NCBI RefSeq assembly: GCF_001589285.1
Contig: NZ_JEMA01000581.1
Location: 1 to 41,925, forward strand
Reading direction: 5' to 3'
Length of the DNA stretch: 41,925 nt
Source: Sorangium cellulosum
GTDB lineage: Bacteria; Myxococcota_A; Polyangia; Polyangiales; Polyangiaceae
The notes beneath the pieces were generated by a model, which ran no database searches, was not told where the DNA came from, and saw only the letters and a list, made by a program, of their open reading frames with translations. Positions 32,941-41,925 of the stretch are shown here, in pieces. Each line of letters starts with the position of its first letter. The first letter of the stretch is position 1. The position numbers and the translations under genes are program-made.

Positions 32941-33192
32941 ATGGACGCCTCGCTCCTCGATGACCCCTGGATCGCCGCTCAGGTCGACGCCGCCGTGGCG
33001 CCTTACGTGGGCCGCCTGCCGGCGCACGAGGTCGCGTGGATGCGCGAGCAGCTCGCGGAGGTCCTGGTGCACGACGAGGAGGCGAGCCGCCTGCTGCGGC
33101 GCGCGCATCCGCGCGAGGTCGACGAGAGCGGCGAGCGGGCGTTCGGGGTGCTCGGCGCCGCGGAGCGCGCCAGGGCGACGAAGGCGGGATAG
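32941..33192 (+). CDS. Small acidic/helical protein preceding a sigma factor gene
   Basis: An 83-residue soluble protein (MDASLLDDPWIAAQVDAAV) with no signal, cysteine or membrane span. It is predicted to be largely helical, with the stretch HEVAWMREQLAEVLVHDEEASRLLRR looking amphipathic. ATG 32941 was chosen because the ATG at 32929 lies inside a perfect -10 box. The stop at 33190-33192 is one base before the GTG of the sigma factor gene, so the two are translationally coupled. Small proteins coupled to sigma genes may act as anti-sigma or activity partners, but nothing in the sequence itself shows this. I do not recognise the family. Confidence 0.6.
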   Translation: MDASLLDDPWIAAQVDAAVAPYVGRLPAHEVAWMREQLAEVLVHDEEASRLLRRAHPREVDESGERAFGVLGAAERARATKAG

Positions 33193-33193
33193 C

Positions 33194-33868
33194 GTGCGCG
33201 CTCCGGAAGACCGGCTGGTCGCCGAGGGGATCCACCTTCTCGCCCTGGTCGCGAAGCGCATCGCGCGCCGCCTGGGTCGCCGTATCCCGGTCGAGGACCT
33301 CGTCGCGCTCGGGCACCCGGCGCTGATCGACGTGGCGCGGACGTACGATCCGAGCCGGTCCACGTTCGAGGCGTACGCCAAGCGGAAGATCCGGTGGGCG
33401 ATCTTCGACGGCATCCGGCGGGAGACGCGCTGGCGCTCCGCGGCCGCGCGAGCGAGCGCGCTCGCCGCGTCGGCGCGGTTCGCGGAGGGGCGCGGCCCGG
33501 ACGCCGACGCCGACGCCGACGCGCCTGCCACGCAGGAGGCCTATGCCGCGCGGCTCAGCGGTCTCCTGGCCGGGCACGCCGCCGCGATGGCGCTCGGCCT
33601 GGCCTCGGCCCACGGCGACGTCGCCGCCGTCCCCGACGCCGCGGACAGCCCCGAGGAGTGCGCCTCGCGCGCCCAGCTCGCGCAGGTCGTGCGCGACGCC
33701 GTCAGCGAGCTCCCCGAGCGCGAGCGCGCCCTCGTGGAGCGCCACTACTTCGACGGCGAGCGCTTCGACCAGATCGCGCAGGATCTCGGGATCAGCAAGA
33801 GCTGGGCGAGCCGGCTGCACGGCCAGGCCATCGAGCGTCTCGGCGAGCGGCTCCGCGCGGCGCGCTGA
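33194..33868 (+). CDS. Sigma-70 family RNA polymerase sigma factor, FliA/WhiG-like
   Basis: A 224-residue alternative sigma factor. Region 2 is seen in DLVALGHPALIDVARTYDPSRSTFEAYAKRKIRWAIFDGIRRETRW, which resembles FliA/WhiG rather than ECF proteins. After a 100-residue middle part with a DADADADA run (33497-33525), region 4 with its helix-turn-helix follows (LPERERALVERHYFDGERFDQIAQDLGISKSWASRLHGQAIERL). The middle part is shorter and less like region 3 than in FliA. GTG 33194 is one base after the stop of the small ORF upstream. No flagellar gene is near; a role in development or stress is possible but unproven. Confidence 0.85.
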   Translation: MRAPEDRLVAEGIHLLALVAKRIARRLGRRIPVEDLVALGHPALIDVARTYDPSRSTFEAYAKRKIRWAIFDGIRRETRWRSAAARASALAASARFAEGRGPDADADADAPATQEAYAARLSGLLAGHAAAMALGLASAHGDVAAVPDAADSPEECASRAQLAQVVRDAVSELPERERALVERHYFDGERFDQIAQDLGISKSWASRLHGQAIERLGERLRAAR

Positions 33869-35846: not shown

Positions 35847-36317
35847 ATGAAGGGTGCGAAAGATATCGTCGACGCGTTGAACGAGGTGCTCGCGGGAGAG
35901 CTCGTCGCGATCAACCAGTACTTCCTGCACGCGAAGATGTGCCAGCACTGGGGCTTCGTCACCCTCGCCGCGCACGGGCGGGCCGAGTCGATCGACGAGA
36001 TGAAGCACGCCGACGCGATCATCGACCGCATCCTCTTCCTGGAGGGGCTGCCGAACCTCCAGCGCCTGGACACGCTTCGCATCGGGCAAAGCGTGCCGGA
36101 GCAGCTCAAGAGTGACCTCGAGCTCGAGTACCACGCGGTCAAGCGGCTCAACACGGCGATCGCCCTCTGCCGCGACAAGGGCGATCGGACGACCGAGGAG
36201 CTCCTGGCCAAGATCCTCGAGTCCGAGGAGGAGCACATCGACTGGCTCGAGACGCAAATCGGGCTGATCGAGAAGCTCGGGGAGACCGCCTACCTGTCCC
36301 AGCAGATCCGCGAGTAG
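35847..36317 (+). CDS. bfr: Bacterioferritin
   Basis: A 156-residue iron-storage protein that forms a 24-subunit shell and oxidises Fe(II). All ferroxidase ligands are present: Glu18, Glu51, His54, Glu94, Glu127 and His130, as is the haem-binding Met52. The segments AGELVAINQYFLHA, DEMKHADAIIDRILFLEG and EEHIDWLETQ are typical. GAGAGGA just upstream of ATG 35847 is a good ribosome site. With the bfd gene upstream it forms an iron storage-and-release pair. The intact residues predict a functional haem-containing ferritin. Confidence 0.96.
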   Translation: MKGAKDIVDALNEVLAGELVAINQYFLHAKMCQHWGFVTLAAHGRAESIDEMKHADAIIDRILFLEGLPNLQRLDTLRIGQSVPEQLKSDLELEYHAVKRLNTAIALCRDKGDRTTEELLAKILESEEEHIDWLETQIGLIEKLGETAYLSQQIRE

Positions 36318-36377
36318 GGCAGGGTAGGGCTCGCCCCCGCTCCGCCGGCGCCCCGCGTGCCTCCTGGCGGCGAGGGC

Positions 36378-36411
36378 CGTGCTTGACGTACGATACGGTG
36401 GACGCATGTCC
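36378..36411 (+). promoter_or_regulatory. Possible promoter upstream of the NtrC-type gene
   Basis: CGTGCTTGACG (36378-36388) is identical to the -35 region of the bfd promoter (35370-35380). With a 17-base spacer ATGTCC (36406-36411) parallels ATGTTC of bfd. The -10 match is poor. The gene starts 115 bases later, and I see no better candidate closer. Confidence 0.3.
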
Positions 36412-36525
36412 AAGACGCCGCGGACGACCGCGCTCGCGCGGTGTTGCGCCAGCTCGGCGCGCGTCGGTCGTGATCGTCGCGCCGCTCTCGTCCCACCAGG
36501 GGGATGAGGGCGGCGGGGGAAATCC

Positions 36526-37881
<1,356 letters not shown>

Positions 37882-38149
37882 GCCAGCGCCCTCCTCTGTG
37901 CCGGGCGGCGCGGCGTGCTCCTCCGGGCGGGCAGCGCGGCCGGCCTGTCAGCCAATCTCAGCAGCGCGTACCCGCAGGGTACAGCGAGTGTGAACCACCC
38001 TGCTCCTCAGGCTGCTGCTCGCCGGCCGAGCAACCTGATGCCCACCAGGCTCAGCAACCGCCCGCTGACCCGGGTTCATCCGGCACATACGGCCGGACAG
38101 AGCAAACCACCTGACTCAGCAGCAATTCAGGGCAGCTAGCTCACGACGG
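37882..38149. other. Gene-poor stretch after the NtrC-type gene
   Basis: No frame here has convincing coding character. TGCTCG (38016-38021) and CGAGCA (38027-38032) make a modest hairpin without a T-run, which could end transcription of the upstream gene weakly. The rest holds scattered CAGCAACC-like repeats. No tRNA fold was found by eye. Confidence 0.4.
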
Positions 38150-38165
38150 ATTGCATCCCTGCAAT
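38150..38165. promoter_or_regulatory. Inverted repeat upstream of the sigma-54 promoter (distal)
   Basis: ATTGCA (38150-38155) and TGCAAT (38160-38165) form a perfect 6-bp inverted repeat around TCCC. TGCAATG recurs once at 38192-38198. The site lies about 100-120 bases upstream of the -24 element, in the range where NtrC-type activators usually bind. Confidence 0.4.
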
Positions 38166-38237
38166 GTAGGAGTGTCGGGATTTGCCTTAGTGCAATGAGG
38201 CGGCTGATGTAGACTGTGTTCTTCTGTTTCACTCCGG

Positions 38238-38259
38238 CGTCGGAAACCATAATCCGACG
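38238..38259. promoter_or_regulatory. Inverted repeat upstream of the sigma-54 promoter (proximal)
   Basis: CGTCGGA (38238-38244) and TCCGACG (38253-38259) form a perfect 7-bp inverted repeat around an 8-base A+T-richer centre. It ends 11 bases before the promoter element and could bind an activator, IHF-like protein or a repressor. Confidence 0.4.
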
Positions 38260-38269
38260 ATTCGGTTAC

Positions 38270-38286
38270 TTGGCCCGGCGATTGCT
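38270..38286 (+). promoter_or_regulatory. Sigma-54 (RpoN) promoter ahead of the receiver-queA-tgt genes
   Basis: TTGGCCCGGCGATTGCT matches the consensus TTGGCACG-N4-TTGCW with one mismatch (C for A in the CAC part) and keeps GG-N10-GC exactly. Transcription would start near 38297, giving a short leader that holds the AGGAGG ribosome site and ATG 38336. The gene next upstream encodes a sigma-54 activator. Confidence 0.7.
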
Positions 38287-38335
38287 AAACCGGTAGGCGT
38301 AATAGATGGCGGCAGCCGCCGCAGGAGGACGCTTA

Positions 38336-38713
38336 ATGGCCCGCATGCTGATCGTGGACGGTGAGAATTCCCAGCGTCGCGCTCTTTCGGCTGGGCTGAG
38401 CGTCGAGGGGTTCGACGTCGCGTTCGCGGCCTCGTTCCAGGATGCGCTGCGCATCCTCGGCTCGTCTTCGATCGACGTCGCGATGATCGACCTGATGATG
38501 CCGGATCTGAACGGCCTCGAGCTGGCCCGCCATATCCGGCGCGCCTTCCCGAGGGTGCGCGTCGTGCTTTCCAGCGCGTATCACCTCTCCGCGCGCCAGG
38601 TCGAGCGCGCCGACTGCGGCGCCGTGGCCTTCGTCCCCAAGCCTTACAAGGTCGGAGAGATCTGTCGTTTCCTCCGCGCCAAGACGAGCGTGCTCACGCC
38701 CGCGTCGTGCTAG
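38336..38713 (+). CDS. Receiver-only response regulator
   Basis: A 125-residue single-domain protein with the receiver fold: Asp8, phospho-acceptor Asp52 (MIDLMMP), Ser80 in place of Thr, and Lys102 in PKPY. The second acidic residue of the usual DD pair is glycine (VDGE), which may weaken metal binding. There is no output domain, so it would act by protein contact or as a phosphate sink. GCAGGAGG precedes ATG 38336 with good spacing; the in-frame ATG at 38306 is less likely because it overlaps the leader. The gene follows the sigma-54 promoter and ends 9 bases before queA, so receiver, queA and tgt probably share a transcript. Confidence 0.85.
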   Translation: MARMLIVDGENSQRRALSAGLSVEGFDVAFAASFQDALRILGSSSIDVAMIDLMMPDLNGLELARHIRRAFPRVRVVLSSAYHLSARQVERADCGAVAFVPKPYKVGEICRFLRAKTSVLTPASC

Positions 38714-38722
38714 TAGCGCGGC

Positions 38723-39844
38723 GTGCGCTGCGAGCTGCTCGACTACGAACTCCCTGAAGCGCTCATCGCGTCGCGGCCCCCCGAGGAGCGTGACGGCGCG
38801 AGGCTCCTCCTGATCGATCGCGGCCGCAGCGACCGCGAGATCGAGCACGCCGCGATCCGCGATCTCGACCGGCACGTCGAGCGCGGCGCGCTCGTGGTCG
38901 TCAACGACACGAGGGTCGTCCCCGCGCGCCTGTTCGGCAGCAAACGCGGCACGGGCGGGCAGGTGGAGCTCTTCCTGCTGCACCGGCTGGACGAGGCGCC
39001 GGCCAGCGGGGGCGACCTCGCCGGCCCTGCGGAGGGCGCGGCGCGGCCCGAGCGCTGGCGTGCCATGGGCCGTGCGTCGAAGCCGATCCGCCCGGGCGCC
39101 GTGCTCGATCTCGAGCGCGACGGGGCGCTGGTGGCAGAGGTGCTGGAGCGCGCGGAGGACGGCGTGCTCACGGTGCAGCTCTCCTCGCCCGCAGGGCTGT
39201 CCATCGCCGCTGCGATCGACGCGTACGGGCACATCCCGCTCCCTCCCTACATGGGCCGCGGCGACGACGCGTCCGATCGCGAGCGGTACCAGACCATCTT
39301 CGCGCGCGTCCCGGGCGCCGTCGCCGCGCCCACCGCGGGCCTGCACCTCTCGCCCGCCCTCGTCGAGCGGCTCCGCGCGAACGGGGTCGAGATCGCGAGC
39401 CTCACGCTGCACGTCGGCCTCGGCACGTTCCAGCCGGTCACGGCCGACGACCTCGACGTGCACCCCATGCACGCCGAGGTCTACTCCGTCCCGGAAGCGA
39501 CCGCCGCCGCGATCGCGCGGGCGCGCGAGCGCCGCGCCCCGGTGGTCGCGGTCGGCACCACCGTCGTGCGGGCGCTGGAGACCGCCGCGGATCCGGCGCG
39601 CGCGGGCCTCGTGCGGGCGCAGTCCGGGGAGACGCGCCTCCTCATCCAGCCCGGCTATCACTTCCGCGTCGTCGACGCGCTGCTGACGAACTTCCACCTG
39701 CCGCGATCGACGCTGCTCGCGCTGGTGTTCGCCTTCGCCGGCCGCGAGCGCACGCTGCGCGCGTACCGCGCGGCGATCGACGCCGGCTACCGCTTCTACT
39801 CCTACGGTGACGCCATGCTGATCCGCGGGGCGAGCGCGCCATGA
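38723..39844 (+). CDS. queA: S-adenosylmethionine:tRNA ribosyltransferase-isomerase
   Basis: QueA transfers ribose from S-adenosylmethionine to preQ1 in tRNA, giving epoxyqueuosine, a late step of queuosine synthesis. The 373-residue product shows the family blocks: YELPEALIASRPPEERDGARLLL at the start, VVNDTRVVPARLFGSK, GLHLSPALVERLRANG, TLHVGLGTFQPV, HAEVYSVPEATAAAI, VGTTVVRALE and TNFHLPRSTLLALVFAFAG. It is about 15 residues longer than E. coli QueA because of an insert near residue 95. The start is GTG 38723, nine bases after the receiver gene, without a clear ribosome site, implying coupling. The stop overlaps the tgt start (ATGA). Confidence 0.95.
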   Translation: MRCELLDYELPEALIASRPPEERDGARLLLIDRGRSDREIEHAAIRDLDRHVERGALVVVNDTRVVPARLFGSKRGTGGQVELFLLHRLDEAPASGGDLAGPAEGAARPERWRAMGRASKPIRPGAVLDLERDGALVAEVLERAEDGVLTVQLSSPAGLSIAAAIDAYGHIPLPPYMGRGDDASDRERYQTIFARVPGAVAAPTAGLHLSPALVERLRANGVEIASLTLHVGLGTFQPVTADDLDVHPMHAEVYSVPEATAAAIARARERRAPVVAVGTTVVRALETAADPARAGLVRAQSGETRLLIQPGYHFRVVDALLTNFHLPRSTLLALVFAFAGRERTLRAYRAAIDAGYRFYSYGDAMLIRGASAP

Positions 39845-40962
39845 GCCGCACGCCTGGCTTCTCGTTCACCGAGCTCGCGCGGGACGGTCATGCCCGCACG
39901 GGCCTGCTCTCCACGCCGCACGGCGAGGTCCCGACGCCGACGTTCATGCCGGTCGGCACCCAGGGCAGCGTGAAGACGCTGACCCCCGCCGAGGTGGCCG
40001 CGACAGGCGCGAGGATCGTCCTCGGCAACACGTACCACCTGTGGCTCCGCCCGGGGCCCGAGCTCGTCGCGCAGCTCGGCGGCCTGCACGCGTTCTCCCG
40101 GTGGCCGCACGCGATGCTCACCGACTCCGGGGGCTTCCAGGCCTTCTCGCTCGCCGAGCGGCGCACCCTCGTCGAGGACGGCTTCGTGTTCCGGTCGCAC
40201 CTCGACGGCGCCCGCAAGGCGCTCACGCCCGAGGTCGCGATGGAGGTGCAGGGGCTGCTCGGGGCCGACATCGCGATGCAGCTCGACGTCTGCCCGCCCG
40301 GCGGCGCGCCGCTCCCGGAGGTCGAGGAGGCGTGCCGGCTGACGACGCGCTGGGGGAGGCGCTGCCTCGCCGCCAAGCGCCCCACGCAGGCGCTCTTCGG
40401 CATCGTGCAGGGCGGCACCTCGGTCGCCCTGCGCACGGCGCACGCGGAGGAGCTCGGCGCCCTTCCGTTCGACGGGCTCGCCCTGGGCGGCTTCTCCGTG
40501 GGCGAGCCGATCGCGATGATGCACGAGGTCGTCGCGCAGATCGCGCCGCGCCTCGACCCTGCGCGCCCGCGCTACCTCATGGGCGTTGGCACGCCGCTCG
40601 ACCTGATCCACGCGATCGGCGCCGGGGTCGACATGTTCGACTGCGTGCTCCCCACGCGGAACGCCCGCAACGGGCAGGCGCTCACGCAGCACGGCAAGAT
40701 CGTCATCAAGCAGGCGCGCTACAAGGAAGACCCGTCGCCGCTGGACCCGACGTGCTCCTGCCCGACCTGCGCGGGGGGCTACAGCCGCGCGTACCTGAGG
40801 CACCTCTACATGGCGGGCGAGATCCTCGTGCTCCGGCTGTTCACCGAGCACAACCTGCACCTCTACGGCCGCCTCATGCGCGAGGCGCGCGCGGCCATCG
40901 CCGAGGGGCGGTATGCGGCGTTCGCCCGCGCGTGGCTCGGCGCGCCCGACGCGAGCGAGTGA
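39841..40962 (+). CDS. tgt: Queuine/preQ1 tRNA-guanine transglycosylase
   Basis: Tgt swaps guanine 34 of GUN-anticodon tRNAs for preQ1. The product of 373 residues has catalytic Asp95 (LTDSGGFQ), nucleophile Asp267 (MFDCVLPTRNARNG) and zinc ligands Cys305, Cys307, Cys310 and His337 (CSCPTC ... FTEHNL). ALGGFSVGE and GVGTPLDLIHAI are typical of bacterial Tgt. The ATG at 39841 overlaps the queA stop by four bases. queA-tgt is a standard pair; the receiver gene before them is unusual. yajC or secD, which often follow in other bacteria, are not found here. Confidence 0.96.
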   Translation: MSRTPGFSFTELARDGHARTGLLSTPHGEVPTPTFMPVGTQGSVKTLTPAEVAATGARIVLGNTYHLWLRPGPELVAQLGGLHAFSRWPHAMLTDSGGFQAFSLAERRTLVEDGFVFRSHLDGARKALTPEVAMEVQGLLGADIAMQLDVCPPGGAPLPEVEEACRLTTRWGRRCLAAKRPTQALFGIVQGGTSVALRTAHAEELGALPFDGLALGGFSVGEPIAMMHEVVAQIAPRLDPARPRYLMGVGTPLDLIHAIGAGVDMFDCVLPTRNARNGQALTQHGKIVIKQARYKEDPSPLDPTCSCPTCAGGYSRAYLRHLYMAGEILVLRLFTEHNLHLYGRLMREARAAIAEGRYAAFARAWLGAPDASE

Positions 40963-41284
40963 CCCTACATCATCGCCATGGGCTCCTCCACGGCGCCCGG
41001 GGCAGGCGCCGCGGCGCTCTCGCCGGCGAGCGCAACGTCCGCGCTGTCCGGAGGGTTCCGGAGTACGATGAGCGAATGGTGAGAACTGGCCGTCCGCCTC
41101 GCGCCGCGCGCAGGTCTCCGCGCGCCACCGGCGGCGCCTCGGCGGCGATCGACAAGGCAGTAGGCTCGAGCCGCCGGTCCAGGAGCCCGAGCCGGTGGCG
41201 CCAGCCGAACGGCCGTCTCAGCGCGCGGGTCGCGTGCTTGCTCGCGCATTCCTCGTCCATTAGCCTTCGGACTCGGCCCGCGGA
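40963..41284. other. Intergenic stretch after tgt
   Basis: No gene on the plus strand is supported. A minus-strand frame (40965-41249, 94 residues) is Ala/Arg/Pro-rich in composition and has no clear start site, so I treat it as doubtful. No clear terminator or promoter was found. Confidence 0.4.
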
Positions 41285-41925
41285 ATGACGCAAGACGCCA
41301 ACAAGAAGCCGCTCGGACGCATCCTCCTGCAGCAAAGGGCGGTCACCCAGCCCCAGCTCGAACAGGCGCTCCTCGACGCGCGTGCGAAGGGGGTCCCCCT
41401 CGCCACGAACCTCATCGAGAGCGGCACCGTCTCCGAGGTCGCTGCGCTGAAGGCCCTCTCCGAGCAGAGCGGCGTTCCTGGCATCGACCTCAACCAGGTC
41501 TGCATCAAGCTGGGCGACCTCTCGATCCTGCCCCGCGAGATCGCCGCGAAGCACAAGCTCTTGCCCGTGCTCGTGCGCGAGGACCGCATCCTCGTGGCCA
41601 TGGCCGCGCCCGCCGACAAGAAGGTGATCGACGAGCTCGAGTTCGTCACCGGCAAGCGCGTCTTCCCGTACATCGCGCTCGCGGGCCCCCTCGTGCGGAC
41701 CATCGCGGCCGCCTACGACATGAAGGAGCAGGGCGAGCCGTTCTACGTCGGCGCGAAGTGCCCCCCCGAGGTGCTGAAGCGCGCCGGCCTCGGCGCCGCC
41801 GCGTCGTCCTCGACCGAGGCGCCGCCCGCGCCCACGCCGGCGCCCGCTCCTGCGCAGCCGGCGCGCCGGCCTCCGTCCGCCGTGCCCCCGTCGACGGTGG
41901 CCCAGGCGCCTGCTCCGCCTGCGCC
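41285..41925 (+). CDS. MshEN/GspE N-terminal-domain protein, 3' end outside window
   Basis: ATG 41285 opens a frame that runs off the end of the window (213 complete codons). Residues 8-150 match the type II secretion ATPase N-terminal (GspEII/MshEN-like) domain: KPLGRILLQQRAVTQPQLEQALLDARAKGVPL, then LPREIAAKHKLLPVLVREDRILVAMAAPADKKVIDELEF and VTGKRVFPYIALAGPLV. Some MshEN domains bind c-di-GMP, but the longer binding motif was not checked. A Pro/Ala-rich linker begins near residue 170, leading to an unseen second part. In myxobacteria such domains also occur apart from GspE/PilB ATPases, so the full function cannot be stated. Confidence 0.7.
   Translation, partial: MTQDANKKPLGRILLQQRAVTQPQLEQALLDARAKGVPLATNLIESGTVSEVAALKALSEQSGVPGIDLNQVCIKLGDLSILPREIAAKHKLLPVLVREDRILVAMAAPADKKVIDELEFVTGKRVFPYIALAGPLVRTIAAAYDMKEQGEPFYVGAKCPPEVLKRAGLGAAASSSTEAPPAPTPAPAPAQPARRPPSAVPPSTVAQAPAPPA

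Follow-up and report, generated by a model that had tools for sequence, protein, structure and literature searches.

What does a sigma-54 promoter serve when it lies ahead of the genes for queuosine synthesis? This question is raised by a stretch of Sorangium cellulosum DNA (the window, 41,925 nucleotides of contig NZ_JEMA01000581.1) in which a -24/-12 promoter candidate is followed by a gene for a stand-alone CheY-like receiver, queA and tgt, and is preceded by a gene for an NtrC-type, sigma-54-dependent activator, or bacterial enhancer-binding protein (bEBP). An initial annotation had described a sigma-54-driven receiver-queA-tgt string that may place queuosine synthesis under a signal. We found that the activator, the promoter and the receiver together are an old module, given that the promoter, two activator-type dyads and the upstream activator gene are conserved across related loci. 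Judged from its distribution, the promoter appears to belong to the receiver and not to queA, because the site is gone where queA sits without the receiver. We are fairly confident that the locus as a whole is best explained by an activator-dyad-promoter-receiver module with lineage-specific read-through into queA-tgt.

The consensus for sigma-54 promoters is TGGCACG-N4-TTGCW, with GG and GC dinucleotides 10 bases apart. The sequence TTGGCCCGGCGATTGCT departs from it at one position, as first annotated, and retains GG (38272-38273) and GC (38284-38285) with 10 bases between them. It is the sole sigma-54-like site with one mismatch or fewer in the window, where 0.30 would be expected; at least one such site appeared in 27 of 100 shuffles of the window, and at three mismatches or fewer the window contains 38 sites versus 48 expected. 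The match alone is thus weak and not beyond chance, and it becomes significant because it is conserved across related loci. We sampled 144 genomes of the order and fetched all 56 receiver copies found at E<=7.4e-23, which come from 50 genomes; weaker matches (from 1.9e-19) lie mostly in longer open frames and were left out. Within 250 bases upstream of the receiver gene, plus 10, a -24/-12 site with no more than two mismatches precedes 44 of the 56 receiver genes, versus 0.75 expected from shuffles, these loci being non-independent rows that include many close relatives, six Polyangium-type genomes twice and two rows with identical activators. The best GG-N10-GC site has one mismatch at 24 loci, two at 20, three at 10, four at one and six at one. 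In an alignment of six Sorangium rows, the key bases of the -24 and -12 elements are retained in all six, inside a more variable stretch. The genome of the window also encodes sigma-54 itself (PF04552).

The dyads show a similar conservation. Their motif, TTKCA-N4-TGMAA, was recognized by eye in the upstream regions of the same 56 loci in which it was later counted, and in the 170 bases before the promoter candidate it is present with no more than one mismatch ahead of 49 of 54 receivers, with 0.92 expected from shuffles; the motif read backward precedes none of the 54. The other two loci, which have no promoter candidate at three mismatches or fewer, were dropped. A fairer test is provided by 21 further loci outside the definition of the motif, distinguished from the 56 by the lengths of their contigs and four of them from Sorangium like the window, among which 20 carry a dyad at one mismatch or fewer and 16 carry a promoter at two or fewer. 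Exact dyads are found there in three genomes of other families of the same class; for the same-class loci L159, L160 and L163, the activator lies directly upstream only in L160. L164, which has neither dyad nor promoter, is a doubtful relative with 38% identity. The window contains two matches at one mismatch or fewer, with 0.28 expected, and both lie at 38151-38195 and nowhere else, the second starting 31 bases after the first. Dyad 2 is the same in five of the six Sorangium rows and differs by one base in the sixth. We take this tandem layout, together with its distance to the promoter, to be that of an enhancer-binding protein.

A search for the dyad throughout the genome of the window yielded 15 sites, versus 10 for the backward control, so that sites elsewhere in the genome are probably mostly chance matches. 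Only the window's own dyads and those at L109 (two promoter mismatches) and L106 (three) have a sigma-54-like site downstream. At L109 (G000:C972:8799, minus strand), two dyads 19 bases apart are followed 53 bases on by the sigma-54-like site and then by a DUF2378 gene, and this locus is a candidate for a second target in the same genome.

The link of the receiver to queA is distributed differently among family-level groups. All 25 first copies from the family of the window (f1) and all five f8 loci have queA behind the receiver; none of the 20 loci from f3, f4, f5 and f10 does, and in 19 of these 20 genomes queA lies on another contig or more than 1 Mb away, while in one it was not found. A comparison with other Polyangiales, which the initial annotation had called for, therefore recovers the promoter-receiver unit, with the queA-tgt order confined to f1 and f8. 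All 30 linked loci have queA on the strand of the receiver, with a gap of 9 to 252 bases (median, 39.5) that amounts to 9 bases in Sorangium, Polyangium and Byssovorax-type genomes. A close copy of the receiver is missing from 44 of the 69 sampled f1 genomes. We fetched 30 of these 44, picked for having the activator and queA on one contig, and in 23 of them queA lies behind the activator, on its strand and at a distance of no more than 160 bases, the remaining seven being further off or rearranged; for two additional genomes of this kind (G026 and G138), match coordinates put some 30 bases between activator and queA. Among 40 regions upstream of queA where no intact receiver is present (the 30 receiver-less f1 regions and ten from f3, f5 and f10, with one receiver remnant included), a sigma-54 site at two mismatches or fewer was found in none and a site at three mismatches in one. 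A promoter that serves queA is contradicted by this count. The part of the earlier proposal that made queuosine induction the purpose of the promoter is accordingly not supported, given that the same promoter and dyads also occur at the 20 loci, in four families, where queA is elsewhere. The string itself does stand: the promoter is by sequence a real one of the sigma-54 type, the same-strand order is kept throughout the linked loci, and a scan detected no terminator-like site between the receiver and queA in the window.

In a tree of 71 activators, a minimum of 10 changes is needed to account for the presence of the receiver, and one side of a branch is made up of the 16 activator-receiver rows that lack queA; the tree was built quickly, with no bootstraps, and does not separate gain from loss. 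At L133, genome G119 has a split receiver remnant between the activator and queA, at -396 to -155 relative to queA, and is sister on the tree to a receiver-bearing genome. The remnant is probably the mark of a recent receiver loss, and because of it loss is favored over gain: the simplest reading is repeated loss of the receiver and promoter, with queA left beside the activator. Within f1, receiver-bearing genomes have a median size of 10.8 Mb (n = 25) versus 5.85 Mb for the rest (n = 44; p 2.7e-6 by a Mann-Whitney test, without correction for kinship).

Table 1. Coordinates of the regulatory sites and genes in the window.
Feature	Position	Strand	Basis or remark
NtrC-type sigma-54-dependent activator (bEBP): receiver, AAA+, Fis-type helix-turn-helix (HTH)	36526-37881	+	Pfam
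Activator-type dyad 1, TTGCATCCCTGCAA	38151-38164	.	106 bases ahead of the -24 element; by-eye motif TTKCA-N4-TGMAA
Activator-type dyad 2, TTGCCTTAGTGCAA, one mismatch	38182-38195	.	ends 75 bases ahead of the -24 element
Sigma-54 -24/-12 promoter (predicted), TTGGCCCGGCGATTGCT	38270-38286	+	motif scan, shuffles, alignment
Stand-alone CheY-like receiver, 125 amino acids	38336-38713	+	Pfam PF00072, alignment
queA, tRNA preQ1(34) S-adenosylmethionine ribosyltransferase-isomerase	38723-39844	+	NCBIfam, Pfam
tgt, tRNA guanosine(34) transglycosylase	39841-40962	+	NCBIfam, Pfam
MshEN-domain gene after tgt, runs past the end of the window	41285-41925	+	Pfam PF05157, conserved position

The features are listed in Table 1. 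The receiver is best taken to start at the ATG at 38336, which is preceded by AGGAGG (38323-38328) and lies 49 bases downstream of the sigma-54 site (50 in the initial annotation, whose other spacings also agree with ours); the mechanical list of open reading frames places the start at 38306. The GTG of queA follows the receiver stop by 9 bases, queA and tgt overlap by 4 bases, and the products of both score above the curated NCBIfam cut-offs. From the usual spacing, transcription is predicted to start near 38297. The MshEN gene is found after tgt at 21 of the 25 f1 loci, the fetched stretches ending too early at the other four, and in Polyangium-type genomes rough gene calls place a gene of the opposite strand between the two. 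An MshEN-type gene also directly follows the receiver at six of eight f5 loci (L049, L052, L056, L060, L065 and L083), which may point to an early connection between the module and MshEN proteins; none was found at the five f8 loci. Upstream of the activator, a bacterioferritin-type gene (35847-36317 in the window; L038-L045) is present at nine of the 56 loci, in Sorangium, Polyangium and Byssovorax-type genomes. Another sigma factor is encoded close to the module, at 32960-33868 of the window, by a gene whose product has the domains of sigma-70 regions 2 and 4.

The domains first annotated for the activator were confirmed above the Pfam cut-offs: PF00072 (receiver), PF00158 (Sigma54_activat, AAA+) and PF02954 (HTH_8, Fis-type). 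Against the NtrC equivalog model TIGR01818 the protein scores 417.9 bits, under the cut-off of 558.6, and it is thus of the NtrC type without being NtrC. Sigma-54 is contacted in bEBPs by a loop with the motif GAFTGA, which reads GSFTGA in this protein. Orthologs of the activator at E<=1e-160 are present in 127 of the 144 genomes, and the gene lies upstream of the receiver on the same strand at 42 of the 56 loci, with more than 1 kb between the two at two of these 42. By group, this arrangement is found for 25 of 25 f1 first copies, for 17 of 20 loci in f3, f4, f5 and f10, for none of five in f8 and for none of six second copies. The link from activator to promoter, an inference in the initial annotation, is therefore backed by synteny and by the conserved dyads, with binding predicted from their co-conservation. 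In a search for a kinase beside the activator, the upstream gene of roughly 440 amino acids at five f3, f5 and f10 loci proved to encode an HD-domain protein and no kinase. A copy of the activator at G244:C1:230213-231550 is 75% identical to that of the window, closer than many copies from the same order, although its genome carries the label of a different class in the phylum; it is a candidate for transfer or misplacement.

The receiver consists of a receiver domain only and is 90-94% identical to four Sorangium records, including one from S. cellulosum So0157-2. Among the 56 aligned sequences, the phospho-acceptor D52 and S80 are present in all 56, D8 in 55 and K102 in 51, and the protein therefore has the Asp, Ser and Lys of a single-domain response regulator. 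The Mg2+-binding acidic pair of such regulators is absent from the window receiver. The subfamily carries the signature SAYHLS-RQL-R-DCG-GFVPKPY. At E<=1e-15 the protein matches 43 Protein Data Bank (PDB) chains from a wide variety of receivers, with Spo0F and NtrC receiver chains among them. Like Spo0F-type single-domain response regulators, the protein is a CheY-like receiver with a phospho-acceptor pocket; unlike them, it belongs to a subfamily with a conserved signature of its own, and the second acidic residue has been lost in Sorangium. Six Polyangium-type genomes have a second receiver (L087-L092), 53-54% identical to that of the window, with its own sigma-54 site and the exact dyad TTTCAnnnnTGAAA and with neither activator nor queA in the fetched stretch; the L089 copy follows two M16 peptidase-family genes.

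From these observations we infer the following course of events. A signal would act through a kinase to phosphorylate the NtrC-type activator, which would bind the two dyads and loop to sigma-54 RNA polymerase at the promoter. The resulting transcript would have the stand-alone receiver as its first, dedicated gene, and the receiver, likely a phospho-acceptor itself, would by analogy probably feed back on or branch the same phosphorelay. For Sorangium and the rest of its family, transcription would probably continue past the receiver into queA, as the spacing and the lack of a terminator-like site between these two genes suggest, and this read-through would provide a signal-dependent extra supply of queA-tgt (and perhaps of the MshEN gene) on top of another promoter. 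Queuosine would then probably be modulated by sigma-54 rather than governed or switched on by it.

Several observations weigh against this explanation. The best promoter candidate has three or more mismatches at 12 of the 56 loci. At four of the 30 linked loci the gap between receiver and queA is 111 to 252 bases, which leaves room for another promoter or a terminator. The five f8 loci keep the site and the dyad ahead of receiver-queA-tgt with no activator adjacent, the activator being found elsewhere in four of the five genomes (E<=1e-160). No kinase was found on the 43-kb contig of the window (C579), which has none of the 147 HATPase_c matches in the genome. Finally, the window receiver reads D8-G9-E10 where many of its 56 relatives have D-D, and because this second acidic residue is replaced, its phosphorylation may be weak.

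The alternative that survives best is that queA and tgt are passive neighbors, transcribed from their own promoter or from that of the activator, with negligible read-through and a merely inherited order. The 23 receiver-less relatives in which queA lies close behind the activator without a sigma-54 site at two mismatches or fewer are as expected if queA is transcribed with the activator, and the widest gaps at receiver-bearing loci (up to 252 bases) also fit. This alternative, which we regard as possible but doubtful, has to accommodate the 9-base gap in the window, free of terminator-like sites, as well as a scan of 36300-41300 that yielded no sigma-70-like promoter match, a scan blind to other promoter types. 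The same scan gave three terminator-like sites versus 1.3 expected, and these lie within the activator and tgt genes.

That sigma-54 is instead the main control of queuosine, the module existing to induce queA-tgt on a signal, seems rather improbable to us. The string is tight and on one strand, with its short gap and its queA/tgt overlap, and the linkage has been held at every f1 first copy and every f8 locus; in Vibrio cholerae, tobramycin, the stringent response and CRP each affect the transcript of tgt (PMC11703503), so that regulated queuosine genes are not new in principle. Against this stand the promoter-receiver unit without queA at the 20 loci of f3, f4, f5 and f10 and in the six Polyangium-type second copies, and the lack of a site at two mismatches or fewer in all 40 queA regions without an intact receiver. 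The receiver, moreover, needs its many changes on the activator tree, yet queA has stayed close to the activator in most of the fetched receiver-less genomes.

A more elaborate scenario, to which we give similarly little credence, is that a sigma-54 phosphorelay of large-genome Polyangiaceae with a Pxr-like layout captured queA-tgt, such that a starvation or social signal would raise queuosine and re-tune the decoding of NAU and NAC codons during a switch of lifestyle, with the receiver timing or ending the pulse. The likeness is to the pxr locus of Myxococcus xanthus. There, pxr, which gives the developmental small RNA Pxr, occupies the intergenic region downstream of nla19/pxrR (Mxan_1078), the gene for a sigma-54-dependent regulator (PMC5684412, PMC5568312, PMC10217877), and this region of 260-262 bases contains a predicted sigma-54 promoter and an enhancer region (PMC5684412, PMC5568312). 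Both loci thus have an NtrC-type gene, an intergenic region with sigma-54 promoter and enhancer, and a product encoded directly downstream. The product in M. xanthus is a small RNA with the partner kinase pxrK beside pxrR, whereas here it is a receiver protein, on a contig on which no kinase was found.

This resemblance also suggests that the sigma-54 transcript might originally have been a structured RNA of the Pxr kind, with the receiver as a later or additional product. At six of the 56 loci a CTGC6-7 element is found in the stretch from the sigma-54 site to the receiver, namely at three of five in f10 (L072, G016; L079, G044; L082, G029), two of six in f3 (L063, G012; L066, G030) and the single f4 locus (L046, G003). 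In the three f10 leaders it occupies the 10-base loop of a 17-18-bp hairpin with a T-rich tail, a structure that resembles a terminator or a small RNA and is reminiscent of Pxr, the C-rich RNA of Myxococcus. The C6-7 run is missing, however, from the Sorangium leader and from 49 other loci, and Rfam models gave only two matches on seven loci, both far under the gathering scores. The published Pxr probe sequence at three mismatches or fewer had no match in 282 genomes sampled from the phylum, 13 from a single family and 90 from a single class; these sets overlap and could not be shown to contain any Myxococcaceae. We consider a Pxr-kind RNA quite unlikely. A chance origin of the -24/-12 match, conceivable for a site expected 0.30 times in the window, can practically be dismissed in view of the conservation of site and dyads at the 56 loci, in the Sorangium alignment and at the 21 further loci.

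The preferred explanation, a receiver-centered module with queA-tgt read-through, places the locus among NtrC-family bEBPs with an adjacent sigma-54 promoter. It shares with them the receiver-AAA+-HTH architecture and the tandem dyads before a GG-N10-GC element, and differs in its target, the gene for a stand-alone receiver, which in two families is followed by queA-tgt. Likewise, queA lies directly before tgt as in the queA-tgt pair of bacteria, and differs from that pair in having the receiver and activator genes ahead and the MshEN-domain gene behind. The activator and promoter are of a known sort, the target is one for which no description was found in the open-access literature, and the queA-tgt link is lineage-specific. 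In agreement with the initial annotation, which knew of no described case of a receiver-only protein co-transcribed with queA-tgt, searches of that literature, in which papers on queuosine together with RpoN were judged by listing, yielded no account of a receiver-queA-tgt locus or of sigma-54 or response-regulator control of queA-tgt.

The regulatory unit, composed of dyads, a sigma-54 promoter candidate and a receiver and usually found beside the activator, occurs in f1, f3, f4, f5, f8, f10, f17 and f18, eight groups at the family level within a single class, and its predicted operator is searchable and testable. Sorangium and Polyangium offer a concrete way to ask whether operon capture puts tRNA modification under a two-component signal, with natural comparisons in two sets of relatives, one in which the unit is kept without queA and one in which queA remains beside the activator although receiver and promoter are absent. 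If read-through is true, the queuosine modification of tRNA may be tuned by a signal in some lineages.

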